64,000 nucleotides of DNA. Source: Lycium barbarum. Lineage: Eukaryota > Streptophyta > Magnoliopsida > Solanales > Solanaceae. Under the pieces are notes generated by a model, which saw only the letters and a program-made list of their open reading frames with translations, had not been told where the DNA came from and made no database searches. The DNA is taken from positions 91,848,321 through 91,912,320 of the forward strand of contig NC_083341.1 in assembly GCF_019175385.1 (NCBI RefSeq), written 5' to 3'. Position numbers and translations under genes: made by a program. Shown piece after piece: positions 5,931 through 63,395 of the stretch. How positions within the stretch are numbered: the stretch's first letter is position 1; each line of letters opens with the position of its first letter.

Positions 5931-6290
5931 GCTTCGCTGTTCTGCTCCCTTGCTACATGTTGTATGGTCCATTCTTTAAATCGGTGTAGTATCACTTGGA
6001 TTTTTCCAAATACCTCTGCATCCGTTCGTCCTTGACCTCGAAGACGTCGTTCACCTAGTTTATGACCAAGAGCGAATCGCACTTCGCCTCGATTATTTCG
6101 GCCCCCATACTCCGGGCTAATTCCAAACCTGCAATCACAGCCTCATACTCGGCTTCATTGTTAGTCAATTTAACAGTTCTAATGGATTGTCGAATGGTAT
6201 CCCCGACCGGGGTTCTAAGGACGATTCCTAGCCCGGAACCTTTGAGGTTCGAGGATCCGTCCGTATGTAGCGACCAACTACCCGAGGCTT
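5930..6290 (-). pseudogene. Archaeal-type RNase H (second RNase H)
   Basis: Between the first RNase H and integrase the minus strand encodes LHTDGSSN, NNEAEYEAVIAGLELA and AKCDSLLV, the D-E-D pattern of RNase H, ending in ADALANLGS. A second RNase H here is diagnostic of the Tat lineage. A stop after LLVIN and a frame change near 6,040 interrupt it. Confidence 0.8.
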
Positions 6291-6299
6291 TCCTCGAGG

Positions 6300-6869
6300 T
6301 TAGCAGAATTTCTTCTCAACCTCGGAGACCATAGCCGGGGTGAAATCCGCCACAAAATCGGCCAAGATCTGGGACTTGATGGCCGTTCGAGGTTTGTATT
6401 CGATATCATATCCGCTAATTTCTACGGCCCATTTAGTTAGTCTACCCAATAATTCTGGTTTATGCATGATGTTTTTTAGGTGGTAAGTAGTCACTACACA
6501 TATCGGATGGCATTGAAAGTAGGGCTTGAGTTTTCGACAAGTACTTACCAATGCCAGTGCCAATTTTTCCAAGTGGGGATAACGAGTCTCTGCATCCCCC
6601 AAAGTTCTACTTATATAATAAATAGGGAATTGCGTACCTGATTCTTCTCGGACCAAAACGCCACTTACCGCTACCTTGGAGACAACCAGGTAGAGAAAAA
6701 GCTGCTCGTCCGCTTTTGGTGTGTGCAACAGCGGTGGGCTGGACAAGTATCGCTTTAATTCTTGTAAATCTCTTTGACATTCTGGTGTCCAAACGAAATC
6801 GTTCTTCTTCCTCAGTAAGGAGAAGAAACGATGACTCTTATCCGAGGACCTCGATATGAAGCTACCCAA
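6300..6869 (-). pseudogene. RNase H and RT connection domain
   Basis: A 189-residue open stretch starting near GSFISRSSDKSHRFF. It contains FVWTPECQRDLQELKRYL (RT thumb/connection) and the first RNase H region (FLYLVVSKVAVSGVLV, YYISRTL, RYPHLEKLALALV). In relatives the motif around VVS carries the first catalytic Asp; here it is not seen, so the first RNase H may be degenerate. Confidence 0.8.
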
Positions 6870-6893
6870 TGCCGCTATTCTTCCGGTGAGCCT

Positions 6894-7832
6894 CTACACT
6901 CCTTTGACGTTATTCACTACCTCAATGTCCTCGATGGCCTTGATCTTGTCCGGGTCGATTTCAATCCCCTGGTTTGACACCATGAAACCCAAAAATTTTC
7001 CAGACCGGACACCGATGGTACATTTTTTCGGGTTGAGCTTCATGTTATACTTGCGGAGTACATCGAAGGTTTCCTGCAAATGTTTCAAATGGTCCTCTGT
7101 TTCCAGGGACTTGACTACCATGTCGTCAATATAAATTTCTATTGTTTTCCCTATTTTTTCTTCGAACATCCCATTAACTAGGCATTGGTAAGTTGCACCG
7201 GCATTATTTAGTCCAAAAGGCATGACGTTATAACTGTAAGTCCCATATCGGGTAATAAAAGATGTTTTCTCTTGATCCTCTGGGTGCATCCGAATTTGGT
7301 TATACCCGGAGTAGGCATCGAGAAAACTTAACATCTCATGCCCGACCGTCGCATAGATCATTCTATCGATGTGAGGCAACGGAAACGAATCCTTCGGGCA
7401 TGCTTTGTTTAGATCCTTATAATCAACACACATTCAAAATTTATTACCTTTCTTCGGCACCACTACTACGTTAGCTAGCCAGTCCAAGTACTTTACCTCC
7501 CGGATAGAGCCTATGTTCAAAAGCTTTGTTACCTCGTCTTTTACGAAGGCGTGTTTTGCTTCTGCCATGGGCCTTCTCTTCTTCTTTACCGGGGGAAACC
7601 TCCCGTCCAAACTGAGCTTGTGAGTTGTTACTTCCGGTGGTATACCTGTCATATCTATGTGGGACCATGCAAAGCAATCGGTATTAGCTCGAAGAAATTT
7701 AATTAACTTGTACCTGAGCTCCGAGGTTAACCCCTTGCCCAGGTATACCTTTCTGTCCGGTAAATATTCGAACAAGATGATCTGCTCCAGCTCCTCCACT
7801 GTTGACTTGGTTGCATCCGAGTCATCTGGCAT
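6894..7832 (-). pseudogene. Reverse transcriptase of the Tat-like element
   Basis: Two segments in the same frame are separated by a TGA at 7,434-7,436, which replaces a residue between VVVPKKGNKF and MCVDYKDLNKACP. Downstream are LPHIDRMI, FLDAYSGYNQI, TYSYNVMPFGLNNAGATYQ and the active-site box YIDDMVVKS with both Asp present, then KLNPKKCTIGV and GKFLGFMVS. The RT fingers and palm are otherwise complete. It would copy element RNA into cDNA. Confidence 0.92.
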
Positions 7833-8156
7833 GACGAATGATCTGGGTACACCAAAATCATCCTCTTCATACCCCGGATCTGACCCCGACTGCTTTGATT
7901 GCTATTTGGTGTCCTTTTCTCCGGCTGAATCTTCTTCCTTTTGACCTTATTTTTTGGGTTGAGGTGTCGCTTCCTCGACCGCGAACATCTCCCTTGCAGC
8001 GGGTTGTTCACCTCGGATGGGTTTTATCCCCTACGGAGTCGGGAATTTCAGCAGCTGATGTAATGTCGACGGCACGGCCCTCATGCTATGTATCCAGGGT
8101 CTACCCAGTAATGCATTATACTTCATATCTCCTTCGATTACATAGAACACCGTTTT

Positions 8157-8420
8157 CTAGATAGTGCCATCGATGTTTACTGGCAATGAGATTTCCCCCT
8201 TTGTGGTTTCGCTCACCATGTTGAACCCGCTGAGTGCCCGGGCTACCGGTACAATCTGATCGAGTAGCCTCAGCTGTTCGACCGCTCTCCACCGGATGAT
8301 GTTGGCCGAGCTACCTGGGTCAATCAAAATTTGTTTAATTTGTGTTTTAAAGATAAGAATAGAGATTACCAATGCATCATTGTGCGGTTGAATGATGCCT
8401 TCTGCGTCCTCGTTGCTGAA
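8157..8420 (-). pseudogene. Aspartic protease of the Tat-like element
   Basis: The 3' part of the open frame 9,071-8,157 contains ILIDPGSSANII near 8,330-8,300, the DxGSS active site of retropepsins with its Asp intact, then VARALSGFNMVSETTKGEI. A stop at the 3' end separates it from RT. It would cleave the Gag-Pol polyprotein. Confidence 0.85.
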
Positions 8421-8672
8421 AGAAATGGAGCCCTCGGGTATGTAATCCCGGCCGCGTTTTTCACGCACAGCATAGACCTTGGTTCGTTTCATCACCGGCC
8501 CTCGTGGGGTATCGGTACCCCCAATTATCATGTTGATTATATGCTGGGGTTCTACTGGCTCGGCCCTTTTAGGGGTCTCCCTTTCCTTGTAGTGACCTTT
8601 GGCTCTTTCACTCAGCAATTCTCGAAGATGGCCATTCTTCACTAACCGGGCTACCTCCTCTCCTAACTGGCG

Positions 8673-10258
8673 ACAATACTCAGTTCTATGTCCATGGGTT
8701 CCATGATATTCACACATCATGTTAGGGTCCCGCTGGCCCGGATCCGACCTTAGTGGTCTCGGCCATCCTATATCCGGAATACGGCCAATGGCCGATACGA
8801 GGTCCGAGGTGTTGATGTTGAAGTTGTACTCCGATATCCTCGGTGAATCTTTGTTGCCGGCAGAGCTTCCGGTTTCATCCCGACCGGAGAAATGAGAGAC
8901 CTCGACTGTTCGACGGGCGCTCGACCCGTTTATCATCCCGACCGGAGAAATGGCTTGGGCCAACCCTGGATTTCTCCGACCTGAAGCTTGGTTTCTCCGA
9001 ATGAGAATATGGCCGATACCTTTCCCTCGATGACCTCGCCTGCAGTTTGTAATTTTTCCTTGGTCTCTCAAAACGTTTGTTCATGTTTACTGGCCCCGGG
9101 GGAAGCTCAAATTGGTCACCCTCCACCTGAATCTTCGACTCGTATCGGTAATGGACATTTGCCCATGTCACATCCTCGTATTCCAGTAAGCTTTCCTTTA
9201 ATTTGAACGAAGCCGCCGAGCTCCGAACATTGAGCCCCTTTGTGAAAGCTTGTGCAGCCCATTCCTCCGGAACCGGAGGGAGCTCCATTCGTTCCCTTTG
9301 GAACTAGTTGACAAATTCACGCAGTAACTCATCGTCTCTTTGGGCTATATGGGCAATATCCACCTTCCGAGCCTGCACCTTTTTGGCTCCGGCGTGAGCT
9401 TTTATGAACGCATCGGCGAGCATTTCGAAAGAAGTGATTGAATGCTCGGGCAGATGGTCGTACCAAGTTAATGCTCCTTTTGACAGAGTTTCCCCGAACT
9501 TTTTCAGCAACACGGATTCGATTTCATCCTCTTCCGTATCATAGCCTTTTATAGCACAGGCGTATGAGGTCATGTGTTCGTGAGGGTCCGTTGTGCCGTT
9601 ATATTTTTGGATATCCGACATTTTGAACCTCTTCGGGATCAATTTCGGAGCCGCACTCGGAGGAAAAGGCCTTTGGATGTACCTCTTTGAATCCGGCCCT
9701 TTCAAAATAGGCGGAGCCCCCGGGATTTGATCCACCCGAGAGTTGTATGTTTCCACCCTTTTTTAGGTCGAGTCTACTCGCTTCGCTAACGTTTCGAGCA
9801 TTCTCAGAACCTCGGTGGATGAACCAGCTCCGGACCTATTTCTTTCAACCATCCGTGCCTCATCTCTTCTGGGTTCAGCAACACCCTTCGCCTTCTCCGG
9901 GGTCGTTTTATCTCTTCCATTTTACAACTGGGCTATTGCGATTCCTTGTTCGACAATCGCTGCTCTCTGTTCCTGCAACATTTCAAAAATTAAACATAAG
10001 TCAATATTATCATTCGGGGTATCCGGTTATTTCCGGCCCTATGTCCGAGACAAAGTAATTGAATTGTGAGTATTTAAAGGGTCAGTGGCCGGCTGGGCGG
10101 CATTCTCCTAGACCATGGTGTTTTGTCGGTTGAGGCCCTCCCTCGAATTAACGGGGTTAGGGTCAGTGGGGTTTGGTAATCCTCGTGGCCCGCTGCCTTC
10201 ATTTTTTGCCACGATCTCGTTGTTGTTGGCGTGACTAGATTGCCCACTATTAGCCATT
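8673..10258 (-). pseudogene. Gag of the Tat-like element
   Basis: The likely start is MANSGQSSHANNNE at 10,258; an upstream in-frame Met at 10,335 also exists. A premature stop near 10,108 and a stop after ELLREFVN at 9,304-9,306 interrupt it. The retrotransposon-gag domain is readable as RFKMSDIQKYNGTTDPHEHM and TLSKGALTWYDHLP (about 9,640-9,440). A zinc-knuckle-like CEYHGTHGHRTEYC lies at 8,714-8,673. Gag forms the virus-like particle shell. Confidence 0.85.
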
Positions 10259-11075: not shown

Positions 11076-13200
11076 ACTACGTCTTTCAAATTCATTCTTG
11101 ACTCGGCTACGCATCCAAAAGGTAAACCTTTATCTTTTTCTTTCCATTTATCAGTGTTCTATTACTGTTTTCAATATATGTTTTGTATAAATGTTTATTT
11201 GATCATTAGTGTGGTATTTGTTGGAGTAGCAATGTGAAAATATTCAGTTTATGTCAAATATGGTGCTTGGCCAATCATTAACCTAGTGTATTATTAAAGT
11301 AATAACATAGAAATCTTCAATTGTTGCTTAGTATGATGTGTAACTAGTTATCAGTGGGGTGTTTGTTGGCATAATGGTATGAAATGCTTGTAACAATTAA
11401 ACAATAGACTAGTATAATAACATATTAGACTCTAAGATGAATTTGAGATCTTGATTAAACTTTGAGTTATGTAGAGACTCTTAAACACTTTAAAACACCA
11501 GCATGTGGTTCTTTGGTTAATAACTTGAATCTAGATTAGTGAATGATGGGTGGATTCATGTCTATTGGAGTGAACAGGTCACTAGGGGCTCTGTATTAGT
11601 CATTAACCAAGGTCAAATGCTGTAATAAAATGAACCTGAGAGGGGTCTGTACAGATGAGGGTTAATGATGAGTCATTGATTGTTTACAAAGGATCAGGGG
11701 GATCATTTGTTTTGTGTGGTTGATCTTTTCAATGATCAAGATAAAATAAGAAAGGGCAAGGAAGAAATGAGGTTGTTTAGACCTGTGTTAATTTGCTAGA
11801 TGAATTGTTTATTTGTATGAACTGCTTTAACTAAATGCCAAAGCTGAGCATTGTCCAGGTTACTTTAAAAGGGGCTGAGTCATTAGGCTTAAACGTGGAA
11901 ATCTGAATAGCTGTTGTGTAGTTTTGCTTAAAAACATGAACACAACTTGCTTTCCTTTATGCTATACACTTATATGGTATCTCTCAGGACTTGTTTAGGG
12001 ATAGTTCTTTGCTTCTGAGAACCTAATTATACTGTGAACCATGGTAATTTGTCCAGTTTGAATGTTCTGAGAGATCAGTGTTGGAAGCTAAGACTAGATT
12101 TCTTTTGTCTGATTACTTGTCTGCCTGTTTTCTCCTTTCATTTCTTGAATGACATTGGTTTCTATCCACATATGTGATTATTCCATGCTTAAGGTCTATG
12201 AAGGGGTTTAAGTTAACGCATCAAATCTGAATTCATATTCCTATTTAGTTTTGCCTACAACCAATTGGATCAAGGGAAACCTATTTGCAATGTCCATGCT
12301 TGTTTATAAACTTGATCTTGTTTGATCTTCAATTGCTTCCTATAAGATTACTATGTCTTGGAGTGATTGACTTGGAGTTAAGTAAGTTTGATTTACATAT
12401 TCACTCATGTTATGCTAGTTTAAACCTCAACTTGTTTGATGCATTATGCCTGATCTTGTATGTAATCCTCCTGAGAATTCATGAATTCCTTAATTCAGAA
12501 TATGCATATGCTTGTTTGGGGATACCTGAATCCTACATTTATTTCCTTTATTACTGGCCTTATGTAAACTATCTTGTGCTACTGGTGTATGCATCCATGA
12601 CTTGCAGTTCGTTTCCACCTTATGCCATGTCTGTATGTCCTTTCATTGTTGTTTCTAGTCATACTACACTAAACCTGCATTTTCCTTCTAGCTATGCCAT
12701 ATCCATGTGCTCCTTTCATTGCTGTGTTAGCAATATTGCATCCACAATTTATTGCTTGCTCCCAATCATATCACGACTGTGTGTTTTTTCTTTCATTACC
12801 ATTATTATGTGAACTACTTGGTACCATTTATGCAAATATGTGATTTACTGCTTGTTCCTTGACTTTCTACTTGTGCTATTCTGGAATTGTGTTCTATCTA
12901 GGCTCTGTTTATTTATTCCCAGTTATCCCTTAACTATATTGCACCTGTGCCCAGTAATCTGCTTGAAATCACCTCATGCCTACTTGTTCTTAGCCTTACT
13001 TATGTTGTACTATATCTGTACCTCAATATATCCTCTGTACATGCTTGTTTATTTAGGATTTGTCTTTAGCTATGTCATGCTCATGATGTCACTTGTTTCT
13101 TCCCATAGCTATGTCTATTTGTTGCAATCTTTGTTCTTGGATACACTAGACTTACCCGTGTTCATTCATCTTTATCATGTATCACTACTGATTCATAAGG

Positions 13201-13223
13201 ACGGGACAAGACCCCGTCGTTCC

Positions 13224-13271
<48 letters not shown>

Positions 13272-13428
13272 TCAAAAGAATATGATCATAAGTAGCACCT
13301 CCGGAATAATGGAGTGCTCCTATGAATCTGTTGATAAGCTCCTACGAATCCGCACCGTCTCCCTATCTACATGTGGGCGTGAACACAGTGTCCAAAAAGA
13401 AAGGACGTCACTACGAACATTATACTGA
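13201..13428 (-). other. Three-hairpin leader module, D1 3' LTR
   Basis: H3 arms ACGGG/CCCGT at 13,201-13,217. H2 arms GTCC/GGAC at 13,390-13,406. H1 at 13,408-13,428 is a 6-bp stem with one mismatch. The same order occurs in six other LTRs of this window. Function unknown. Confidence 0.55.
13229..13270. repeat. (TA)21 microsatellite in D1 3' LTR
   Basis: 42 bases of pure TA. The same site in the partner LTR (20,904-20,915) has only (TA)6. Confidence 0.97.
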
Positions 13429-14921
13429 GTATGTAAGGCATGAATAGTACTGGCATAATAAAGAAATCATGAAGCATGATATGAAGATATAACCTGATTA
13501 ACCTTTAAAAGTAAACACGTGTTATACATCTCACATATATAAACATATCACATGTACCATCGTCGTTAACCTGCGTCCGGGTAACCATTATCTGCCGCCC
13601 ACTAGTGGTGTCATGTCCGAACCTCTAGGCACGGTGTAATCATAAGCAGCCCGCATTAGCGGTGACATGTCCGACCATCTAGGCACGGTGGAATCGTATG
13701 CAGCCTGCCTTCGCGGTGACATGTCCAGCCATCTAGGCAAGGTGGAATCATATCATCATATACTCATCATAAAGCATGCACTAGAATCCAAAGATAATCT
13801 ATAACCATATCGGGGAGACATAAGGCCGAGAACCCCCATTTCCATTATGGAGTAATCATAATCATCATACCTCACCTCGAAGAGACTAACATTATAAGGT
13901 GGGTCTAGAAACAATGAATAACATCAAAGGAACGTATAAGAATCATTAGCTTCATAGGAATATCATGTCATGAGCTTTGGGATCTTTAGGCTTAGACTCA
14001 TCATCATTATTATCATATTCATTACGTATCTCTTATCTTTATCTCCTGAGTAGTTCTTAATAGTCATAGGCTCATAGTTTCCGAATGTATGAAAGTCATG
14101 GAAAAATAAAGTAAGTCATGTCATAGGAATCATGCCTTAGAAAGAAGGGACTAGCCTTGCATACATTTTCGTTTAGCTACTTTATGACTTGAACGTTTCC
14201 CTCCAATATTCACGTTTCTATCTTCAAGAGAGTTCGTACTAATATTAGATAATCGATAACGTAAGCATGCTTGAACTAAAGCTAGAGAAAATTGGGCAGC
14301 ATCTCCTTTGTTTAAACAACTTTCTCCATATCATATAACAACTCCCAAACGTCAATAATAATATTCATAATATCATACTCAACAATCTTCATCAACTATA
14401 CATTATTCAATTCCACTACTTTCATTTCAAGGGCATCCATAACCATGGTCACTATACTACATTACATTCATCCACCTATAACGTTTCTCCCATATTCTTA
14501 ATATCATTTAAAACATAACTATACTCGTAACATATCAATAATCATGATTCATTTTAAGCTACTACCCAAAAATGCCACTATTCTCATATTTGTGACCCAT
14601 CTTCTTCCTCCTTCCATAATCCAAGTCTTTCAACCCCTCAATAGTATAAATAACATGAATTTATCATAAAACTTTCCTTTGATTGTGTGGGAATGATCTT
14701 TGGGTGGAAACACTTCACTTGAGGAAAACCTTAGCTTCAATCCAAAGGGATTTCTTATCTTGCATGAACCCTAGTGAGCTTCTTGCACGTGATTCCCTTG
14801 GTTTGATGAAGTTGATCCTTAATTTATCTTGGATTATTGAAAATAAATGGTGTGGAAAGTTCTAGAGGTGTGGAGAGTGTTAGAGAGAAAATGGGAAATG
14901 AAATAATGAACTTGGGCCCTC

Positions 14922-20875: not shown

Positions 20876-21073
20876 ACGGGACAAGACCCCGTCATGCCCA
20901 AAATATATATATATACACAAAAGAATATGATCGTAAGTAGCACCTCCGAAATAATGGTCTGCTCCTGTGAATCTGCTGATAAGCTCATACGGATCCGCAC
21001 CGTCTCCCTGTCTACCTGTGGGCATGAACACAGCGTCCAAAAATAAATAAAGTCAGTACGAACATTGTACTGA
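20876..21073 (-). other. Three-hairpin leader module, D1 5' LTR
   Basis: H3 ACGGG/CCCGT at 20,876-20,892. H1 TCAGTAC-N7-GTACTGA at 21,053-21,073, perfect 7-bp stem. H2 is decayed here: the GTCC arm near 21,035 lacks its partner. Confidence 0.55.
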
Positions 21074-22567
21074 GTATGTAAGGCATGAATAGTACTGGCA
21101 TAATAAAGAAATCATGAAGCATGAAATGAAGATATAACCTGATTAACCTTTAAAAGTTAACACGTGCTATATATCTCACATATATAAACATATCACATGT
21201 ACCATCGTCGTTAACCCGAGTCCGGGTAACCATTATACGCCGCCCACTAGTGGTGTCACGTCCAGCCCTCTAGGCACGGTGTAATCATAAGCAGCCCGCA
21301 TTAGCGGTAACATGTCCAGCCATCTAGGCACGGTGGAATCGTATGAAGTCCGCCTTCGTGGTGACTTGTCCGGCCATCTAGGCACAGTGGAATCGTATCA
21401 TCATATACTCATCATAAAGCATGCACTAGAATCCAAAGATAATCTATAACCATATCGGGGTGACGTAAGGTCGAGAACCCCCATTTTCATTATGGAGTAA
21501 TCATAATCATCATACCTCACCTCAAAGGGACTAACATTATAAGGTGCGTCTAGAAACAATGAATAACATCAAAGTAATGTATAAGAATCATTAGCTTCAT
21601 AGGAATATCATGTCATGAGCTTTGGGATCTTTAGGCTTAGACTCATCATCATTATTATCATATTCATAATGTATCTCTTATCTTTCTCTCTTGAGTAGTT
21701 CTTAATAGTCATAGGCTCATAGTTTTTGGAATGTATGAAAGTCATGGAAAAATAGAGTAAGTCATGTCATAGGAATCATGCCTTAGAAAGAAGGGACTAG
21801 CCTTACATACCTTTTCGTTTAGCTACTTTATCACTTGAACGTTCCCCTCCAATATTCATGTTTCTACCTTCAAGAGAGTTCGTACTAATATTAGATAATT
21901 GATAACGTAAGCATGCTTGAACTAAAGCTAGAGAAAATTTGGCAGCATCTCCTTTGTTTATACAACTTTCTCCATATCATATAACAACTCCCAAATGTCA
22001 ATAACAATATTCATAATATTATACTCAACAATCTTCATCAACTATACATTCTTCAATTCCCGTACTTCCGTTTCAAGGGCATCCATAACCATGGTCACAA
22101 TACTACATTACATTCATCCACCTTTACCATTTCTCCAATATTCTTAATTTCATTTACAATATAACTATACTCGTAACATATCAGAAATCATGATTCATTT
22201 TAAACTACTACCAAAAAATGCCACTATTCTCATATTTGTGACCCATCTTCTATCTCCTTCCATAATCCAAGTCTTTCAACCCCTCAATAGTCTAAATAAC
22301 ATGAATTTATCATAAAACTTTCCTTTGATAGTGTGGGAATGATATTTTGGTGGAAACACTTCACTTGAGGAAAACCCTAGCTTCAATCCAAAGGGATTTC
22401 TTGTCTGGCATGAACTCTAGTGAGCTTCTTGCACTTCATTCCCTTGGTTTGATGAAGTTGATCCTTAATTTATCTTGGATTCTTGAAAATAAATGGTGTG
22501 GAAAGTTTTAGAGGTGTGGAGAGTGTTAGAGAGAAAATGGGAAATGAAATAATGAACTTGGGCCCTC

Positions 22568-34096: not shown

Positions 34097-34293
34097 GCGG
34101 GACAGGACCCCGCTATACCCATATATATGTACATAAAAGAATCAATACCAAAAGTTATAGCTCCGAATGAAATGGAGCTCCGCTATGCAGTCCCTGAGAA
34201 ATATAGTTATGGATCAAGCCTGTCTCCCTGGCCACCTGCAGGCATGACGCATCATCCACAAACAAAAGGAAGTCAGTACGGAGAATGTACTGA
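34097..34293 (-). other. Three-hairpin leader module, solo LTR
   Basis: H3 GCGGG/CCCGC at 34,097-34,113, perfect, with G-C where D1 has A-T at the outer pair. H1 TCAGTAC-N7-GTACTGA at 34,273-34,293, perfect. H2 is weak, 3-4 bp (TCC/GGA). Confidence 0.55.
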
Positions 34294-34735
34294 GTTTGTA
34301 AAGCATGATCAATATCATTATAGAAGCATAATAAGTAACATAAGAAATAACATAAGATGGGAGATAGCAGTGTCATCGTCATAAGCACTTACTTGCTTTT
34401 CATAGGGACTTTCCATTTCTAATGCGAGATTGTGTACATACATCTGTATCCGTATCCGTACTCATATCCGTACTCATTTACATTTCGTATCCATAGTCGT
34501 ATTCAAATACATATTCATATTCGTACTCATATCTATATCATATACATATCCATATCATATACATAGCATTTACATAGCAAACCCGACAACGAAGGTTCGG
34601 TGTTTCACGTACCCGACCATGGCTAGGCTCGGTTATCATACATACCTGGCCAACCAAGGCTTAGAGTTACACATACCTGGCCCTACCAAGGCTCAGGGTT
34701 ATCCGTACCCAGCTGAAGTGGTGCGCGCGCATCAT

Positions 34736-34738
<3 letters not shown>

Positions 34739-34778
<40 letters not shown>

Positions 34779-34782
34779 CCGA

Positions 34783-34816
<34 letters not shown>
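34739..34816. repeat. Two TA microsatellites in the solo LTR
   Basis: Two (TA)n runs, about 34,741-34,775 and 34,786-34,816, are split by CCCCGAGAA. Both lie beside degenerate repeats of ACCTGGCC-ACCAAGGCT (34,600-34,700). Confidence 0.9.
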
Positions 34817-34818
<2 letters not shown>

Positions 34819-35920
34819 TTATATTCTACCCGGCCATATAAGCTCGGGGTTTCATAATAGCCACACATAGGCACATATACGTAAAAGCTCATAGGCATTC
34901 TTAGAATCATTACTATTATCATTGTAGTCATTATCGTTATCACTATTATCGTCGTTCATTACATCTACCCTTATAGGATTACTCGTCATATGAGGAATTT
35001 AGTACAATTGTAACATATCGAGAATCATGAGCTTAATAGCTTTTGGAGATAGCCTCATTTGGAGGACAACATAGGCTTATAGAGGATTAGATATTTGGCC
35101 AAAGAACCATGCCTTATGAAAGAAGGGTTAGCCTTAAATACCTTTCCGTTCAACTATTCTATCACTTGCACGTTCTCTTTCAATGCTCACGTTTCTACCT
35201 TCATTAGACTTATATACATTAGAAAATCGATAACTAGCATACACGACTAAAACTAGAGAAAATTGGACAGCATTCCTTTTATTTATACGACTTCGTCCAT
35301 ATCATATATCAACTCCCAAACTTCAATAATACATTCACAATATCATAACAATAGTCTTTATTCATCCACATTATCCATATTTCTCAATTCACTTCCAATC
35401 ATTCATATCCATGGTCATAACACACGATTACGTTCATTCATATACAATGCCTATCCCATGTTCTTAACATCATTTATAACATAACCATATCACAACACAT
35501 AAATAATCATGACTCAATTCAAGCTATTACTCACAATGATATTATTCCCACATTCATGACCCATTTTTCTATATCCTTCTACAATCCAAGTTTTTCAACT
35601 TTCAAATACCTTAAACAACATGGAAATACCATAAATCTTACCTTAAATGGTGTAGGGATTAACCTTGGGTGGATACACCTCACTTGAGAAAAACCCTAGT
35701 TTCACCTTCACTTGGATTCCTTACCTTGGATGAACTTTAATAGGTTTCTTACACTTGATTCACTTAGTTTGATGTTGTTGATCACTAATATCTCTTGAAT
35801 TCTTGTGGAAGAAGTGTAGAGAGATGTTTTAGAGAGAAGGGGTGTGAAAGGAAATGAAATGAAATAAGACTTGGATCCCTTATTAATAACACAAATCTGT
35901 CTCGACCAGTTTCTACGGAC

Positions 35921-38104: not shown

Positions 38105-38636
38105 TGTTACAGCTCGTAGTTTTGTACGTTGAGATTCGCTAGGTGTTAGTTGTTCAATTGTGGACACAAGAGTTATTGTCTAGGATATATGAGACTATGT
38201 GTGCTTATATTGTGGTTATTATGGTTTAAGAGCATGCAATAGGTCATGGAAGGATGGGAGAACAAGTGAATCAAGACGGTCAAGTTTTTGGACCTTTGGA
38301 GAAAAGTTGGGCAAACTTTCGCATGATAATTCTGGTCTAACTTTGGGAAAGAATATCTTTTAGCATATGAATAGTTGTGAGGTAAAGTAAAACCCTAAAA
38401 TGAAGTTCAAGAAGTCTAGTTTCCAATGCAACAAACCGCGCATCAATCCGACATCGGAATCAAACATTATGAGCATTTTAAGACAGAATGCCAGAGAAGA
38501 GATTAACTCTGCGAACGTGCCTGGAGGTGGCGCGAATGCGTAGAGGAGCCAGGGGCTAACTCAGTACGAATGCGCCCCAAAATGGTGCGAATGCGCTGAG
38601 CAAATCCTACGTCGGTGCAAACCGACTCTAGAATGT

Positions 38637-38643
38637 TATATAA
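38637..38643 (+). promoter_or_regulatory. TATA box, N1 5' LTR
   Basis: TATATAA followed by GGGGGCTTACCCCC, about 530 bp into the LTR. It is conserved in the 3' LTR at about 44,658 as TATATAG. Confidence 0.65.
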
Positions 38644-39956
38644 GGGGGCTTACCCCCTCATTTTTTATCCAAACACCCCTCCAAACTTCCCAAACTCTTT
38701 GGAACTTTCCTCCAACTCCTGTTTATAAAATTTTAGCACGAATTAAGTGGAATCTCTGGATTTAGGTTTAGACAGCGTATAGTTGCGATTATAATATCGT
38801 ATTGTGGCGAATCTAGGCTTGGATTCATGGTGAAAAGTGAATATATTGTGGTTCCGTCGGAAGAAAGGTATGAATCTTCTCTTATTAATATTGATTTAGG
38901 TTTATTTACAGAGGTAGAGTTATTAAGTGATCGTATAACAAATTTGTTGGTTCAGAAATTGGATAAACATCGTGTGGGATGTTTTATGGAATATTTTGGT
39001 ATTGATGATGATGTTATTGGTGTTGGTGTTGTTTTTGTTGTGTTGGTTTTTGGTATTGTGATTTCGGGCTAGGGATATAAATAGGGAAGATGTTGTCCAA
39101 ATCTTGGCAGATTCTAAAGAAGTTTAATTTGAAGACATAAGATAAGCTTATGACGATAGGCCTAACCATAGAATGAATGATCTTATATGTAGATTGCGAG
39201 ATCGGAAATACGTGGGAAAGTCATGAAATGAACTTCCAGGTATGTTAAGGCTAGCCCCTTTCTTTTCAAAGGCATGATTCCTTTCTTATGAACCTATACA
39301 TGTTTTCCATAATGTTCTTATTCCCAAAAGCTAGAGATTCATGATTCTTAGAGTTCTTATGATGCTAAAGATGAGTATGTTTTATGATAATAATGATGAT
39401 GATGATGATCCTATATCTAGAAGTTTCAAAGTTTATGGTTTTAATGCTATCATGAGATTATTGAGTATATTTCATGATGTCCTTGATTTTACTTATTGTT
39501 GTTGATCTCACCTCATGATAATTGTTCCTTCGGGGTGAGATATAGCGATGATGATTGCTCCATAATATAAATTGGAGGTTACCGACCTTACGTTACTCCG
39601 ATATAGTGTATCTTTTGATTGGGCTCTCATGCATGCTTATGTTTATATATGATTACACCGTGCCTATTGGCCGGGCAGACACCACTTCGGTGGGTGGCTT
39701 ATGGATATGATAATAACACCATGCCTATATGGATGGGCAGTCACTATTAGTAGGCGGCGTGATATTGTTACCCCGGATGCAGGAGGCCCGGACGCGGACT
39801 AATGATGATATTATGTTATGTATGTATGAAAAATTCTTTTCTTAAAAGTCTAAACATGCATGGTATCCGCCTTATGAGGCAATCAGATGTACAGATTATC
39901 TTTATCCCCTGTTATGCTCTATATCTCTTATTATGTTATTTTCATTCCTTACATAC

Positions 39957-40157
39957 TTAGTACACTACTCGTACTAACGTCCTTTCTTGTGGACGCTGTG
40001 TCATGCCCGCAGGTTCAGGTAGCCTGCCTAACGATCCAGCTCGAGAGGTCTTCCACTCAGCCGCAGTCAGTGCGCTCCAGTTGATCCGGTGCTGCGGTCC
40101 TCTTTGGTATGTTATTTTGATGTATGCGTATATGGGTATGACAGGGCCTTGTCCTGT
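39957..40157 (+). other. Three-hairpin leader module, N1 LTR
   Basis: H1 TTAGTAC-N7-GTACTAA at 39,957-39,977, a perfect 7-bp stem with T-A where the Del LTRs have C-G. H2 CGTCC-N8-GGACG at 39,978-39,995, perfect. H3 ACAGG-N7-CCTGT at 40,141-40,157, perfect, with A-T where D1 has G-C. Confidence 0.6.
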
Positions 40158-40508: not shown

Positions 40509-40703
40509 AGTTCTGTCCTAGGGTTATCTACAGACCATGTCCAGTAGAGTTTTGTTTATAGGTGTGAAGCGCGCCACACTTATAAATAAGTGGCTGCGGG
40601 GAATTTAGGAACCATTGACCTTTCTTTCTATCATATATCGTGCGATAGAGCCAGAGTCTAGGAAGATTGTTTCTGACCCACTTTTTCTATAGGTAAGCGC
40701 AGA

Positions 40704-46798: not shown

Positions 46799-49700
46799 GA
46801 ACCCTAACCCTCACATTAAACAGGTCTTGAACTCTTAAGCAAAAGTACAGAGCTTAAAATTTAAGTCTTATTCGAATTTAAAGTCGTGTTCAATAAAAAT
46901 TTTATTCTTGACTTCAAAGTTAGGGTTTTCTGGTTCAAAAATTTGATCTCTTATCTTTTTTGTGTGGTTGAGTGGAGGAAAGGAAGCACTAAGGCTTTCA
47001 AATTCATTCTTGACTCGGCTGCGGATCAAAAAGCTAAACCTTTATCTTTTTCTTTCCATTTATTAGTGTTCTATTACTGTGTTCAATATATGTTTGGTAT
47101 AAATGTTTAGTTGATCATTGGTGTGGTATTTGTTGGAGTAGCAATGCAAAAATATCCAGTTTATGTCAAATATGGTGTTGGGAAAGTCATTAACCTAGTG
47201 TGTTATTGAAGTAATAGCATAGAAATCTCCCATTGTTGCTTATTATGATGTGTAACTAGTTATTAGTAGGGTGTTTGTTGGCATAATGGTATGAAATGCT
47301 TGTAACAATTAAACAATAGACTAGTATGATAACATGTTAGATGCTAAGATAAATTTGAGATCTAGATTAAACTTTGAGTGTTGTAGAGACTCTTAAACAC
47401 TTTAAAACACCAACATATAGTTGTTTGGTTGATAACTTAAATCTAGATTAGTGAATTATGGGTGGATTCATGTGTATTAGAGTGAACAAGTCACTCGGGG
47501 CTCTATATTAGTCACTAACCAAGGTCAAATGCTTTAATAAAATGAACCTGAGAGGGGTCTGAACTGATTAAGACGCCATTAAAACGACAGATAAGGGTTA
47601 ATGATGAGTCATTGATTTTTTTAAATGGATCAAGAGGATCATTTATTTTGTGTGGTTGATCTTTTCAATGTTCAAGATAAAATAAGAGTGGGCAACGAAG
47701 AAATGAGGCTGTTTAGACCTGTGTAACTTTACTAGGTGAATTCTTTATTGGTATGAATTGCTTTACCTAAATGAAAAAGTTGAGTATTGTCCAGGTTACT
47801 TTAAAAGGGGTTGAGTCATTAGGCTTAAAAGTGGGAATCTGAATGGTTGTTGTGTAGTTTTGCTTAAAAACATGAACACTCCTTGCTTTCCTTTACCCTG
47901 TGCATTTATATGGTATCTCTCAGGACTTGTTTAGGGATACTGCTTTGGTTCTTAGAACCTAACTATGTTGATAACCCTGGTAACTTGTCCAGTCTGAATG
48001 TTTTGAGAGATCAGTGTTATAAGCTAAGATAAGATTTTGTCTGTCTGATCACTTGTCTGCTTGTTTTCTCCTTTCATTTCCTGAATGACATTGGTTTCTG
48101 TCCATATATGTTATTATTCCATGCTTAAGGTCTATGAAGGGGTTTAAGTTAACGCATCAAATCTAAATTCATGTTCCTGTTTAGTTTTGCCTATAGCCAA
48201 TTGGATCTAGGGAACTTGTTTGCAATGTCCATACTTGTTTATAAACTTGATCTTGTTTGATCATCAATTGCTTCCTATAAGATTACTATGTATTAGAGTG
48301 ATTAACTTGGAGTTAAGTAAGTCCGATTTGCATATTCACTCCTGTTATGTTGGTCTAAACCTCAGCTTGTTTGATGCATTATGCCTAATCTTGTATGTAA
48401 TCCTCCTAGAATTCATGAATGCCTAAATTCAAAATATGCGCATGCTTGTTTGGGGATACCTAAATCCAACATTTTTTTCCTTTATTACTGGCCTTATGTG
48501 AACTATTTTGTGCTATTGTTGTACGCATCCATGACTTGTAGTTCGTTTCCACCTCATGCCATGTTTGTATGTCCTTCCATTGCTGTTTCTAGTCATACTG
48601 CACTAAACCTGCATTTTCCTTCTAGCTATGCCATATCCATGTGCTACTTTCGTTGTTGTGTTAGCTATATTGCATCCACAATTTATTGTCTGCTCCCAAT
48701 CATATCACGACTGTGTGTTTTTTCTTTCATTACCATTATTATGTGAACTACTTGGTGCCATTTTTACAAATATGTGATTTAGTGCTTGTTCCTTGACCTT
48801 CTTCTTGTGCTATTCTGGGCTTATGTTCTGTCTAGGCCTTGTTTATTTATTCCCAGTTATCCCTTGACTATATTGCACCTGTGCCTAATAATCTGCTTGA
48901 AATCACCTTATGCCTACTTGTTCATAGTCTTATTTTGGTTGTATTATATTTGTACCTCAATATATCCTTTATACATGCTTATTTATTTAGGATTGGTCTT
49001 TAGCTATGTCATGCTCATGTAGTCACCTGTTTCTTCCCATAGCTATGCCTGTCTGTTGTAATCTTTGCACTTGGATACACTAGACTTACCTGTATTTATT
49101 CATCTTTATCATTTATCACTACTGATTTAATTTGCCTCTGATCACCTCATGGTGATATACTTAACCTTGCAATTTTTTCCCATGACTCTAGGATTGTAAC
49201 TGCCTCTAATAATACACATGTAGATTCTGCATCTTGTTGGCTTCACCACTGGATGCTACAGCTTTATTTCTTGCTCACCCCATGTCTATGTGCCTAATCT
49301 GTATCTTGGCTATCCCCTATCTATGTCCTGCAGCTTACTCTTGATCTCTCTATGGCTATGTGTCTTTGCTTATTTTGTTTATACAATGCGTACTTGATTC
49401 AATACTGCTTTGAACTATGCTATCACTATGTACCTGCTTATGTTGTGATTGTTTGGTTCAATCTAGCTTTGATTACATTGTATCCATGTATGCTATTTCA
49501 TCCTTGTTTAAGTCATATTCAGTTGTCTTGGTTTTGATTTACTAGAATATTACATCTGCATATTATCCATTCATCTTTGCTCCTCATACTCTTTACTTGC
49601 TCCTATTAATTTGTGGCTATCCTATAACTATGTGCAATAGACTTGTTCTATCTGTTCCAAGCCTGTATATGGATATGTAAGTCTGTGTCTTCCATGGTTG

Positions 49701-51103: not shown

Positions 51104-51297
51104 GTGGGAAAGGACCCCGCCGTGCCCATGTATGTACACAAAAGAATAATATCAAAAGTTGTAGCTCCGAATGAAATGGAGCTCCTCCAAGTAGTCCCTG
51201 AATACGAAAGCTATGGATCAAGCCTGTCTCCCTGGCCACCTGCGGGCATAACGTAGTGTCCACAAACAAAAGGACGTTAGTACGAATATTATACTGA
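51104..51297 (-). other. Three-hairpin leader module, second solo LTR
   Basis: H3 GTGGG/CCCGC at 51,104-51,120, one mismatch. H2 GTCC/GGAC at 51,258-51,275. H1 at 51,277-51,297 has one mismatch and one wobble. The most decayed of the seven. Confidence 0.5.
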
Positions 51298-52682
51298 GTA
51301 TGTAAAGCATGATCAACATTATAATAGGAGCATAAGAGACAACATAAGAAACAACATAAGATGAGAGAATTCGGGAGATAGTAAAGCCATCATTATCATT
51401 ACTTACTTACTTGTCTTTCATAGGGACCTTCCATTTCTAAAGTGTGCTAGTGTACATACATACACATTCATGTTTGTATTCATATTCGTATCCATAGCAT
51501 ACCCGACCATGGAGGTTAGGTGGTTTCACATACCCGGCTATGATGAGACTCGGTGATTATACATACCTGGCCCTACCAAGGCTTAGTGTCATCCATACCC
51601 AACTACAGTGGTGTGCGCGCAATAGATATCATACCCGGCTATATAAGCTTGGTGTTACATAATAGTCATACATACTTAGACACGTATACATAAGAGTCCA
51701 TAAGTATCATCAACATCAGTACCATTATCATTTTCATTACGTCTATCCTTGGAGAATCAACTATCATACAAGGGATGCAATGGAATCATGAAAGTATCGA
51801 GGATCATGAGCTTTGGTAACTTTAGAGATTGAACCATTTGGAGGACATTATGGAACTCATGAAAGGATATATACATAGCCAAGGAACCATGCCTTATTGA
51901 AAGAAGGGTTAGCCTTACATACCTCTTTGTCTTCTCAACTATCTAGTGTTCACCGTTGAAGCTTGGATAATCTACATTCAGAAGGATTCATGTTGTGGTT
52001 AAGCCTTAATGATACTTTTAAATTAAAACTAGAATAATTCATAGTCTAATGAAAATTGGGCAGCACTTCCCCTATTTCGTCAACTTCCACCATATCACAA
52101 AACAACTCCCAACACCACAATAACATCCATAATACACTTATAATATCCAATTCAAGTAATCACATTACACTAAGCCTTTAATATTCACCCCCATGTTCAA
52201 CTCATACTAGCAACTTCATACCAATTTTAGCACATTTTCATATAACGCTTCTTCATCACCATTATTACCTTCCATAACATGGTTATATCCATATCATACT
52301 AAGAATCATGACTCCATATAGATTACTACTCATAAACATCATAAAAGCTACATTTAGACTTCATTTTCTACCTCCTTCTTCCACCCAAGTTTTGCTACAA
52401 CCAAACATTCTAAACAACATCAAATAAGCATGAAAACTAACCTTTTCATCCCATGGAAACAAGCTTTGGAGCAGCTATCAACTTTGTGCAAAACCCTAGC
52501 TACAATGCCCAAGTTTTGTTGTAGTCTACAAACACTAAGAAACCTTCTAACGTATGAACACTTTGATTCTTGCCTCTTGATCTTTGCTTTATCTAGGATT
52601 GGGGTGGAATAAGTTTAGAGGAGGTATTTGAGCTCTCAATGCTTGTAGAAGATGAAAAATGAAATAAAAGAACCAAGGGCAA

Positions 52683-55029: not shown

Positions 55030-56454
55030 GTGATCCCACTTTAGTAATTTCATTTCCCACACAATTCTTCATCTCTCTCAAGACATCTAGAAGGTTCCAT
55101 ATACTTCATCTACAAGAATACAAAGAAAAACAAAGATCAATATCAAGAATTCAAGTGGGTCAAGTGCATAAAGCTTACTAGGGTCCATCTAAGTCAAGAA
55201 TTCTCTTGGGAGTGAAGTTAGGTTTTCGGTGCAAGAAGAGAGGTTACACTCAAGGGTTGTTCATCCATCATCTAAGGTGAGTTTTATGATCATTATTGGT
55301 TGTTTAAGGTGTTGAAAGTTAAGAACACGCGAATTGTAGAAAGATTTAGAAAGTGGGTCATAAATGTGGGAAGAGTGACATTGTTGGGTGAAGGTTTGGA
55401 TTGAATTATGGATATTGGTATGTTGTGATTGTAAATATATTGTGAATGACACTTAGACCATGGAATAAGTATTATATGTGAGAAAATGCAATAATGAACT
55501 ATGATCGTGATTATGGAGAAATTGGAGTGAAACTACGAAATGTGGGTAATGTAGATGAATGATGATTGTTGTTTGTGATATTGTGAATATGGTTATGAAC
55601 ATTTGGGAGTTGATATAGATTATGGGAAAAGTTGTATAAACAAAAGAAATGCTGCCCAATTTTCTTTAGCTTTAGAAGACACGTTTAAGTAATTGATTAG
55701 CTAATGTTCATGCGACTTCTCTTGAAGGCAGAAACGTGGGCATCGAAGGAGAACAAGAAAGCGATAGATTAGTTAAACGTAAAAGGTATGTGAGGCTAGT
55801 CCTTTCTTTCTATGGCATGAATCCTATAGCATGACTTTTCCTTCCTCTTCATGAATTTCCTACATTCCGGAAAACTAAAAGTCTATGTTCATGAGTAGCT
55901 ATATGAGATAAGAGATATGTTACGAGCCTATTGATATGATGTTCCTATAAAGTTAATGATGCCGTTTATTGCATACACTCACCTTATATACTATTTCTTT
56001 CAAGGTGAGGCAGAATACTTATAAATGTCCATAATTGGATTGGGGGTTCACGACCTTATGTCACCCCGATAAAGTATAGATATCTTGGGGTTATTATGCA
56101 TGCATTATGATGAGTATATGTTGATGATATTACACCGCGCCTATATGACCGGGCAGACACCGCTAAGGCGGGCAGCTATATGTATACACCATGTCTAGGT
56201 GACATGGGCAGACACCACTAGTGGGCGGCATGAGATGGTACCCCGAACGTGGGAGGCCCGGCCCAGGCTAATGATTATCACACCGTACCTATATGGACGG
56301 GCATCTTATACATTAATGCATACATGACATGATGATGATTATGAGTAAGCCAGCATGTGTTATTTCTTTTATAAGTGATAGTTATATACAGTTGCCCCTT
56401 ATTGATGCTTCCTCTATCTCATTGACGTATTTTCATTACTTATGCCTCTCATAC

Positions 56455-56650
56455 TCAGTACAATGTTCGTACTGACGTCCGTTTTCTTTGAACGTTGTGT
56501 TCATGCCCACAGGTAGATAGGGAGATGGTCTTGATCCTGACTCGTAGGAGCTAATAGCTGATTTGAGAGCACTCCATTGTTCCGGAGGTGCCTTTGATGA
56601 TTATTTTGTGTACATATGTATATACAAAGCATGACGGGGTCCTGTCCCGG
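56455..56650 (+). other. Three-hairpin leader module, D2 LTR
   Basis: H1 TCAGTAC-N7-GTACTGA at 56,455-56,475, perfect. H2 CGTCC/GAACG at 56,476-56,494, one mismatch. H3 ACGGG/CCCGG at 56,634-56,650, outer pair lost. It lies about 1.4 kb downstream of the TATA box and ~0.45 kb upstream of the PBS. Confidence 0.55.
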
Positions 56651-56930
56651 ACCTATGTCTAGCACTTTAGTAGAGGCTCGTAGATACGTAGTTGTGGGTT
56701 ATATGGTCTCACGAGGTTACTACTGTATATATACATATTGTCATTTTGATAGCCGAAAGGCTTATGTATATAAAAGTATTTATGTTCTCAAATAAAAAAT
56801 GATTTTCTTATGATTTGAGTATGAAATTGATAAAATAACGCTTAATAAGTATGATGAGTAGTAGAATGAGTGGTGCTCGGTGGTTAGCCCCGGGTACCAG
56901 TCACGGCCCCTAGCCGGGTCGTGACAAAAG

Positions 56931-56942: not shown

Positions 56943-57120
56943 AGTTCAGTCCTAGGAAGTGTCTACGAGCCATGTCTAGTAGAGTGTTATTTATGGTGTG
57001 TTGCGCGCCACACTAATAAACAACAGGCTACAAGGCATTTAGGAAAAATGACCTTCTTTCATCTTAATAGATTGTGCGATAGAGCTGTGTTGTAAGATTT
57101 TCCCCTCTTAATAGTGTGCT

Positions 57121-58452
57121 ATGATTTCAGAAATGCCGCCAAAGGGAAAAGCTACAGCCGCCCAGAAGGGCAAGACTACAACGAAAAAACGGGTAGAAAG
57201 AGAGCCGCCAATGAATGTAGAAGAGGGCGAGTCACATAATGAGGCTCCATCTAATACTTCCTCCACCCCGCCCAATGTAGAAGAAAAAGGACGAGCTTCA
57301 ACTCCAGTTCCTCCACCGGTTGCTTCGGGTCAACAAGTGACCGAAGTCATTCATCTATTGACAAAGTTAGTTACCGCCCAGGCACAGCGGTAGAATGTGA
57401 GTTCAAGTAATCGGGCAGCTAGTACCAGAGCCCATGACTTTATGAGTTTAAATCCTCAGGAGTTTTTCGGGTCAAAGCCGGATGAAGACCTGCAAGGTTT
57501 TATTGATGAGATGCTGAGAACATTGAGGATTATTTATGCCTCTGAAACTGAATCTGTGGAGTTGGCATCTTATAGACTCCGAGATGTGGCGGTATGGTGG
57601 TACAATAATTGGCTAGCATCAAGAAAAGAAAATGCGCCTCCTCCCGTGTGGCAAAAACTTTTAGATGCTTTCATCTGTCTCTATTTGCCAACCGAGGTCC
57701 GCCGAGCTAGAGCGGATAGGTTCTTAAATATAAAGCAAGGAAACATGAGTGCTCGGGAATATAGTCTTCAATTTAATTCATTGGTTAGATATGCCCCGAA
57801 TATGGTGGCCGACATGGGAGATAGAGTGCATCGCTCTGTGAGTGGCTTAGGGCCACATTTGTTCAAGGATTGTTTGACGGCTTCGTTACAAGATGGGATG
57901 GATATTTTTTGAATTCAAGCGCATGCCCAGAACTTAGAAGGACAACAATATCCACAAAAGGGTGATCGTGATATTGACAGGAGGCAAGGCAAGAGGGCCA
58001 GATCCATGGGGGTAGGTAGTGATTATGGATGGGGATCAAGGCAGACACATTCTAGGCACTCAGGCAAGTCGGTGACTAGTGCACCTCCTCGATTTACCGG
58101 TAGGAGATTTGATTGCTCCTTTCGTTCATGACCAGGTCAGAGTTCGAGGGCCTCAAATTTTTAGTTTGGGGGAGATTATAGCCAGAGGAGACCCCCAGTA
58201 CAGCGATGCATCCAGTGCTGTAGATTACATCCCGGACAGTGTCGCCAAGGCTCAGATGCTTGCTTTGCCTACGGCCAGGTTGGGCACATGATGCGAGATT
58301 GCCCGTCGATAAGTGGTAGAGTTGGGGTTCAGCCCACAGGATCAGTGGCTAGTTCATCTTCAGTGCGCCCGGTAGGTCAGACTCCCCAGATGTCAGCAGG
58401 TCGAGGTAGAGGCAGAGGGGGAGCATCTACTTCAGGTGCCACTCAGCCCTGA
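57121..58452 (+). pseudogene. Gag of D2
   Basis: It starts MISEMPPKGKATAAQKG at 57,121. A TAG at 57,391, a TGA at 57,910, further stops near 58,130-58,170 and a TGA at 58,450 break one otherwise continuous frame; the piece 58,079-58,291 is another frame. The gag domain is clear (MSLNPQEFFGSKPDEDLQGF, ELASYRLRDVAVWWYNNW, ADRFLNIKQGNMSAREYS). The zinc knuckle at about 58,255-58,300 reads CFAYGQVGHMMRDC, with Tyr for the second Cys. In D1 a different Cys of the same knuckle is lost. Confidence 0.9.
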
Positions 58453-62585: not shown

Positions 62586-62802
62586 ACGGGACAGGGCCCC
62601 GCCGTACCCCTGAATAGTCACACATACATGAATATACACAACAGATGGAACTGTACCAAAAGTATGGGCTCCGGATCAAGGGAGCACTTCAAAACGGCAG
62701 AACGGATATCCTAGGCTGACGGATCACCGTAACGAACGTCTGTACCTACGGGCATGAAACGCAGCCCCCGAAGAAAGGGGGTCAGTACGGAATATGTACT
62801 GA
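62586..62802 (-). other. Three-hairpin leader module, rightmost LTR
   Basis: H3 at 62,586-62,602: 4 bp plus a G-U pair in element sense. H2 CCCCC-N7-GGGGG at 62,765-62,781, perfect, replacing the CGTCC/GGACG pairs of N1. H1 TCAGTAC-N7-GTACTGA at 62,782-62,802, perfect. Confidence 0.6.
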
Positions 62803-63034
62803 GTATGTAAGGCATGAAATACAGAAAACAGAAACATAACTGGAACAATGGTACAAAAAGTAAGTACATTAGCCAGAATACCAAGGTGCTTATTCTCCGA
62901 ACGTAGATCACGCATACCGATGTCATATGTCAGAAAAGTACAGAAAATGAGTAAATCATCCAGAGTATCAAAATACTTACTTTCCAAACACAGATCATGT
63001 GTGCCGACATCAATTGTCATCATATACATATACA

Positions 63035-63395
63035 TATAGCAGATCCCGGCCCTCTAGTGAGGGACGCGGTGGACGGACTCATCAAGTATGTTGACATCAT
63101 ATATCATATACACATATAACAGATCCCGGCCCTGTAGTAAGGGACGCGGTGAACAGAATCATCAATGCATGTCAAAATCATATAGCATATGTGCATATAA
63201 CAGATCCCGGCCCTCTATTGTGGGACGCGGTGAACAGAATCATCATATGCCATCCTGGCCGCCAACCCCATATCATCATATCATCATATACATATGTACA
63301 TATAATTGAACCCGGCCCGCAAGGGAGAGAGACGCGGTGAACAATGCAAAGGAAGACGCACGATAACAGAACCTGGCCCGGGGCGCAGTGAAGGA
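63035..63395. repeat. Tandem repeat, ~80 bp units
   Basis: CAGATCCCGGCCCT at 63,040, 63,120 and 63,201, each followed by GGGACGCGGTG and a CATATA-rich tail. Two more diverged units start at about 63,308 and 63,369. Confidence 0.9.

Follow-up and report, generated by a model that had tools for sequence, protein, structure and literature searches.

A hairpin array in chromovirus-like LTRs of Lycium barbarum as the probable structured 3′ end of a leader intron

We analysed a 64,000-nucleotide stretch of Lycium barbarum DNA (contig NC_083341.1; hereafter the window) in which seven long terminal repeats (LTRs) share a set of hairpins. The hairpins are real, as judged from the pairing of their aligned copies, and we consider with moderate confidence that they make up the folded 3′ end of a leader intron lying in the LTR, whose two ends would clamp to each other and thereby restrict splicing. 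We take this to be the most economical reading. The clamp is a finding at the level of sequence; splicing is a prediction. Packaging, dimerisation and translation control, the roles suggested in the initial annotation, are guesses. The letters point first to splicing, because a branch-point motif, an AG-free stretch and a YAG/GT stand at the end of the array, a donor lies upstream, and 11 nt at this donor are complementary to the array (a slash marks a predicted splice junction throughout).

Host elements, copies and alignment

The LTRs belong to a chromovirus-like group of Ty3/gypsy elements. Open frames of two elements contain RT, RVP_2, RNase H, H2C2 and SH3_Tf2-1 domains that exceed the cut-off, and the Chromo domain scored below it (18.4 of 25.1 bits). 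Their lineage is probably Tekay/Del.

The 1.67-Gb assembly (164 contigs) was searched with the LTRs, and matches were seen on 12 large contigs. Each query returned 6193 to 8747 first-look candidates, of which about 40 were scored. The resulting alignment of 102 copies combines the seven of the window with 95 genomic ones and spans six families: F (30), D (27), G (21), C (11), E (11) and B, which has two copies only. The genome copies comprise 29 of the 40 listed for family F, 26 of 41 for D, 20 of 40 for G, 10 of 40 for C and 10 of 41 for E. Thirty copies were fetched for family D, one being the window copy and three having no alignable module. Rows L051, L065 and L068 were left out for the lack of an alignable module, L001 and L041 as the window's own copies, and L071–L090 were left out of the pair counts. 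The positions of the parts are given in Table 1. The donor of G62 lies 122 bases beyond the end of the window (row L040).

Table 1. Positions in the window of the hairpins, long-range arms and predicted leader introns
Feature	Position	Strand	Remarks
D40 ("N1") H1, 7-bp hairpin	39957–39977	+	3′ arm bears branch-point motif CTAAC (CTGAC in most copies)
D40 H2, 5-bp hairpin (CGTCC with GGACG)	39978–39995	+	pyrimidine-rich loop
D40 H2b, hairpin (CTGTG with CGCAG)	39996–40012	+	last three bases are the CAG of predicted 3′ splice site CAG/GT
D40 H3, hairpin (ACAGG with CCTGT)	40141–40157	+	within predicted third exon
D40 long-range 3′ arm	39946–39956	+	adjoins H1; 10/11 complementary to the predicted intron's first bases
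D40 predicted 5′ splice site CAG/GTATGTTAAGGC and long-range 5′ arm	39240–39251	+	one bulged T in family D
D40 LTR leader, predicted intron 2	39240–40012	+	773 nt
D40 LTR TATA box	38636–38647	+	first predicted donor 38868
F56 predicted intron 2	55786–56512	+	arms 55786–55796, 56444–56454; H1 56455–56475; H2 56476–56494; H2b 56495–56512
F56 predicted intron 1	55277–55731	+	donor AAG/GTGAGT; exon 2 55732–55785; TATA 55021
B21 predicted intron 2	21016–21810	-	arms 21800–21810, 21074–21084 pair 11/11
B21 hairpins	H1 21053–21073; H2 (broken) 21034–21052; H2b 21016–21033	-	
A13 module core, decayed	13371–13428	-	H1 mismatch; CAG changed to CAT; donor position ~14164 reads AAAAT/GTATGC
C34 (solo LTR) predicted intron 2	34236–35141	-	arms 35131–35141, 34294–34304 pair 9/11; H1 34273–34293
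E51 predicted intron 2	51240–51922	-	arms 51912–51922, 51298–51308 pair 11 with one G.U; H1 51277–51297
G62 predicted intron 2, 3′ end	62746–62813	-	long-range arm 62803–62813; H1 62782–62802
G62 hairpins	H2 62765–62781 (CCCCC with GGGGG); H2b 62746–62764	-	

Pairing and covariation in the hairpin core

The seven LTR segments lie where the initial annotation had placed them, and H1, H2 and H3 are present in element sense in each. The ordered set that it described is common to at least six LTR families, but its layout needed correction. The core consists of H1 (7 bp), H2 (5 bp) and an additional hairpin that had been missed, H2b (5 bp, CTGYG pairing with CRCAG), which adjoins H2. The three abut without gaps in element sense, and H3 stands apart, some 120–150 nt further on. 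The spacing of about 1.4 kb from the TATA box to H1 agrees with the 1.3–1.6 kb measured in F56, D40, B21, C34 and E51, and the distance from H1 to the primer site, put at about 0.4–0.5 kb, measured 0.48–0.54 kb in F56 and D40. The surrounding sequence differs, as had been said, between distant families; B and F, and likewise C and E, remain 38–85% identical, varying by leader region. The initial annotation was right in seeing here a conserved structure at the RNA level, located between the TATA box and the primer site.

Across the 102 copies, 1623 of the 1734 core pair cells form (93.6%), compared with 465–706 (27–41%) in six control versions in which the partner was slid by 1–3 columns; chance pairing is therefore excluded for the core. 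The majority bases of families F, D, C, E and G make every one of the 17 pairs, and those of the two B copies make 14. Several single copies have one or more broken stems: H1 of A13 contains a G.G mismatch, H2 of B21 is broken, E51 has a C.A mismatch in each of H1, H2 and H3, and C34 and F56 have one H2 mismatch apiece.

Covariation, for which the initial annotation had proposed a test, was assessed against a null in which the substitutions were randomly re-placed on the branches of a FastTree tree in 3000 runs; all p values are uncorrected for the number of helices and pairs tested. H2 gave p = 0.0003, the floor of 3000 runs, and the core as a whole 0.0003; H2b (0.012) and H3 (0.022) were weakly positive, and H1 showed no covariation over the null (p = 0.15). 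The support for H2 is one family-level event in which two pairs are swapped. Family G has C-G at pair 2 in 20 of 21 copies and at pair 3 in 21 of 21, and the other families have mostly G-C and T-A at these positions, indicating that the swap noticed in the rightmost LTR (G62) is real covariation. The support for H2b is one T-A/C-G difference between families, and that for H3 a few changes; the variation reported in H3 is real between families and partly of CpG type.

The reported compensatory change in H1, from C-G to T-A in D40, did not hold up. It occurs in one of 27 family copies, the others having C-G (21) or T.G (5), and both of its changes are of C-to-T type in a CHG context; for these reasons the T-A pair is not evidence for H1. 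Families F, D, C, E and G share one majority sequence of H1, and variation in this hairpin was dropped as covariation evidence. More generally, 137 of the 232 inferred changes were C>T or G>A (in that run the H3 3′ arm was placed one base off), and this excess is what methylation decay yields. Since decay at CG steps often keeps a pair, apparent compensation within single copies, such as that in H1 of D40, should not be counted. CpG and CHG decay can mimic compensatory changes wherever hairpins are read from LTR copies.

Fold-energy z scores in 13 representative copies were mixed for the core (+1.0 to -4.0) and ranged from +0.1 to -2.2 for the whole module, except in A13 (-5.6), where an AT run is responsible. 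Rfam gave no match at gathering score in the window, and the segment 39230–40200 gave one chance-level match (E 0.7). Among viral contigs, nine matches to the H1/H2 pattern were obtained, and the H1 5′ arm occurred in none of the printed sequences. A further small hairpin, AGCC-NNNN(N)-GGCT followed by TTATGTA, lies downstream of H3 in several families (56751–56763 in F56).

Splice signals and conservation in the LTR leader

The leader follows one order: TATA box, a first donor AAG/GT, an exon of 47–54 nt, a second donor AG/GTATGT and, 0.68–1.38 kb on, the module. The TATA box was seen in five of the six families, the G copy having been read less far upstream. The first donor is AAG/GAAAGT, with GA for GT, in both B copies (22322 in B21, 14676 in A13). 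The second donor is present in all six families, C34 having GTATTT, and the AG/GT of each of the six LTR leaders matches the U2-type consensus. Scored with approximate weights, it ranked first among the GTs in F56 (1/132), D40 (1/134), B21 (1/114) and G62 (1/243), second in E51 (2/141) and fifth in C34 (5/144). The module would be the branch point-to-AG end of a spliceosomal intron of about 0.7–1.4 kb lying wholly within the LTR. Two introns are predicted from the TATA box to the primer site, and this is the second. Intron 2 differs in length between copies, and tandem repeats of 54 nt (13603–13753 and 21260–21398) and 81 nt (63019–63250) lie inside its predicted span.

The array bears the signals expected of such an end. 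H1 contains a CTRAY branch motif in 92 of 102 copies, and the 33–36 nt that follow are free of AG in 96 of 102; 200 letter shuffles averaged 50 and reached at most 64, a contrast that is not a probability, the copies being related. The core ends exactly at CAG/GT; a YAG stands at its end in 93 of 102 copies and GT directly after it in 98. The predicted intron ends in an 11-nt arm, H1, H2, H2b and the junction with GT, without gaps. In most copies the branch motif precedes the YAG at a spacing that suits U2-type introns (some 20–60 nt), with no AG between. There is no strong pyrimidine tract directly before the AG, and judged as an ordinary acceptor the site scores poorly, ranking 10–38 among 97–127 AGs. 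Weak, pyrimidine-poor acceptors are common in retroelements that need unspliced RNA. A recursive splice site at CAG/GT was considered and dropped, the bases after the GT being mostly not donor-like by eye; in F56 this CAG/GT is the third-scoring donor.

Conservation shifts abruptly at AG/GTATGT and at CAG/GT. At the second donor, mean pairwise identity among the six families rises from 0.32 in the exon to 0.87 in the intron; at the acceptor it falls from 0.87 before the AG to 0.47 at positions +3 to +12 (0.33 in the four most diverged). The splice positions were first chosen by eye, so that the identities of the site bases themselves are biased and the drops in the flanks are less affected. 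In four of the most diverged pairs (G62–D40, G62–C34, D40–C34 and D40–F56), the first 60 nt of intron 2 were 53–65% identical and the last 75 nt 71–75%, with shuffles at 31–39%; exon 2 and intron 1 were near shuffle level, as was the middle of intron 2 except in D40–F56 (45% versus 30% shuffled). The first 200 nt past the acceptor were 48–52% identical, with shuffles at 27–37%.

For family F, a query of joined exons 2 and 3 found no spliced genomic copy among the 40 candidates scored out of 2769. Exon 2 was found in 14 of 20 fetched loci of the same family and runs on into the donor in all 14.

The predicted introns contain 11–58 ATGs each, compared with 0–3 in exons 1 and 2 together (six LTRs). 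Spliced RNA would lose 0.3–0.8 kb (intron 1) and 0.7–1.4 kb (intron 2) of ATG-rich leader. However, 14–18 ATGs remain between the module acceptor and gag in the three LTRs checked, and removal of the two introns alone would therefore not clear the route to gag. An acceptor-like site lies just before gag at 57130 in F56, 40692 in D40 and 20465 in B21. Its sequence is TTATGATTTCAG or CTATGATTTCAG in B and F and CTGAC..TTTTTCTATAG in D, and it ranks fifth (F56), third (D40) and sixth (B21) among 80–89 AGs. Either this candidate or the module acceptor may be the main 3′ splice site of the gag mRNA.

These sites give rise to the strongest competing explanation, in which the array is intronic without being an acceptor: the donor would join a later acceptor, such as that before gag, and the fold would be a signal of unspliced RNA for packaging or export. 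Use of the pre-gag site, a candidate in each of the three LTRs checked, would remove the ATG-rich part of the leader that contains the primer site, and the module acceptor has the lower score. Against this, conservation falls exactly at the YAG/GT of the module, and a branch motif and an AG-free stretch precede it at a fitting distance. We regard this explanation as unlikely and prefer an acceptor at the end of the array.

A long-range helix between the ends of the second intron

The 11 nt that immediately precede H1 are complementary to the first 11 nt of intron 2, which read GTATGTAAGGC in most families. A scan of the two conserved ends found this complementarity to be perfect over 11 nt in two LTRs, B21 (shuffle P 0.003) and G62 (below 1/300). 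The donor was found by motif search in 64 of 72 copies, eight being without one, and because the search motif contains the donor itself, the sample favours consensus-like copies. Over these 64 copies, 624 of 704 long-range pair cells form. With G.U counted, all 11 pairs form in one of two B, four of four G, three of four E and nine of 22 D copies, the last with one bulged base; 10 of 11 form in 17 of 30 F copies, and the two C copies have 10 and nine. In family F, pair 7 has changed from A-U to G-C in 29 of 30 copies, and pair 6 is T.T and broken in all 30. The tree null gave p = 0.008 for the sum and 0.001 for pair 7 alone (both uncorrected).

The duplex has an energy of -12.0 to -15.8 kcal/mol, compared with -7.6 to -8.6 kcal/mol for the same donor with U1. 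When whole introns were folded, the helix had a probability of 1.00 in B21 and G62 and of 0.86–0.95 in four of six further D copies; it was near zero in F56, D40, C34, E51 and three of four further F copies, the remaining F copy having 0.49. A second complementarity joins GGCATG, 28–31 nt into intron 2 in six of six LTRs, with CATGCC in the H2b loop of five of six (TATGCC in E51). In F56 the segments at 55814–55819 and 56500–56507 are complementary over 8 nt, and these sequences are near-invariant among the LTRs.

Alternative explanations

The view of the initial annotation, namely a packaging, dimerisation or nuclear-export structure unrelated to splicing, is somewhat less probable still than a downstream acceptor. 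The core pairing and the covariation in H2, H2b and H3 are real, and the array sits between the TATA box and the primer site. Such a structure leaves unexplained why conservation drops at AG/GTATGT and at CAG/GT and why 11 nt of the donor match the arm before H1. Moreover, dimerisation would be better served by a hairpin with a palindromic loop located beyond the primer site; by eye, the only palindrome in the loops of the array is a 4-base CATG in that of H2b. This other hairpin, GTGTG-NNGCGCGC-CACAC, begins 65 nt after the start of the primer site (40562–40579 in D40, 56996–57013 in F56) and may be a candidate for kissing-loop dimerisation in families D and F. Its GCGCGC loop is kept in 12 of the 19 copies located in families B, D and F, and the other seven differ by C-to-T or G-to-A.

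An origin at the level of DNA is much less probable. The inverted repeats would stem from an old DNA transposon (introner-like) or serve as protein-binding dyads, and the RNA structure would be incidental. At the DNA level the long-range arms and H1 are indeed inverted repeats, and in the most diverged pairs little is conserved between the arms, but no target-site duplication was seen by eye in the flanks, the changes in H2 preserve pairing rather than sequence, and the donor and the AG stand at the ends of conserved blocks. Accidental pairing in homologous LTRs that are still alike by descent is the least credible account: H1 is invariant between family majorities and many double changes are of C-to-T type, but in the pairs where the array remains 71–75% alike, exon 2 and intron 1 are hardly more similar than shuffles, and both the slid controls and the tree null (p 0.0003) speak against it.

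Proposed function and comparison with known systems

In the splice-site reading that we prefer, formation of the long-range helix and the hairpins would leave the 5′ splice site, the branch point and the AG all base-paired. Splicing would then be limited, and a share of the RNA would stay full length for packaging and reverse transcription. When the structure opens, the intron and its many upstream ATGs would be removed, giving RNA for translation. The hairpin core may mark unspliced genomic RNA, since splicing would remove it. As a tentative extension, which we hold to be less than evenly probable, the LTR may contain a self-regulating splice switch: an 11-bp helix from a U1-like sequence before the branch point would capture the 5′ splice site, three abutting hairpins would hold the branch point and the AG, and the structure, perhaps opened or stabilised by Gag, would set the division between spliced mRNA and genomic RNA across several families.

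Some viruses and retro-elements hide splice sites in RNA structure and thereby keep unspliced RNA. The HIV-1 leader hairpin bears the major splice donor, and HIV-1 and influenza have folded 3′ splice sites. Whereas those are local hairpins, the structure described here would consist of a long-range helix from donor to branch point followed by three abutting hairpins. The long spliceosomal introns of Giardia, Spironucleus and Trichomonas have internal pairing that brings their splice sites together (PMC6679479), and in both cases the ends are joined by pairing within the intron. In the account compared here, the stem-loops of those introns shorten the distance between the sites, whereas the 5′ arm in our LTRs is the 5′ splice site itself, suggesting blocking rather than only bridging.

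BARE1, a Ty1/copia element of barley, is described as producing a spliced Gag-only RNA beside an unspliced replication RNA, and its authors, while showing splicing in RNA, could not amplify any genomic copy of the spliced form (PMC3735527). The abstract on BARE calls the division of transcripts between translation and reverse transcription a major question for retroelements. As in that description, our plant LTR elements are predicted to split their RNA between translation and replication by splicing, and spliced genomic copies were not found, here in family F only. In contrast to BARE1, in which splicing has been shown and whose intron is reported as 104 nt with a junction just past the end of gag, the introns here are predicted, lie in the LTR leader, measure 0.3–1.4 kb and include a second one with structured ends. 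Plant LTR elements are generally without introns according to a 2025 review, which names Ogre and EVADE as exceptions and states that splicing removes the protease domain in the EVADE element of Arabidopsis (PMC12786077). Our elements would likewise be intron-bearing; neither exception is described in that review as having its intron in the LTR, and the comparison follows the review's description. MIKKI, a rice element with a spliced transcript, was compared through the account in PMC5599236 and is not alike.

Among the open-licence PMC papers listed on LTR covariation, packaging, stem-loops, introns, leader splicing and donor pairing, none describes this structure in its title or the opening part of its abstract. 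Length variation is said to have prevented models of plant Metaviridae LTRs in a 2013 study of LTR structure (PMC3601003). If confirmed, the structure would provide a testable structural answer to the division of transcripts in a plant Ty3/gypsy group of high abundance. The intron would, in addition, be one located within an LTR, which may help to explain the great length of these LTRs.

A13, a 3′ LTR, departs from B21 just after H3 (13193–13201). The adjoining 2.1 kb (11076–13193) match 46988–49127 at 89%, and another repeat seems to be inserted there.
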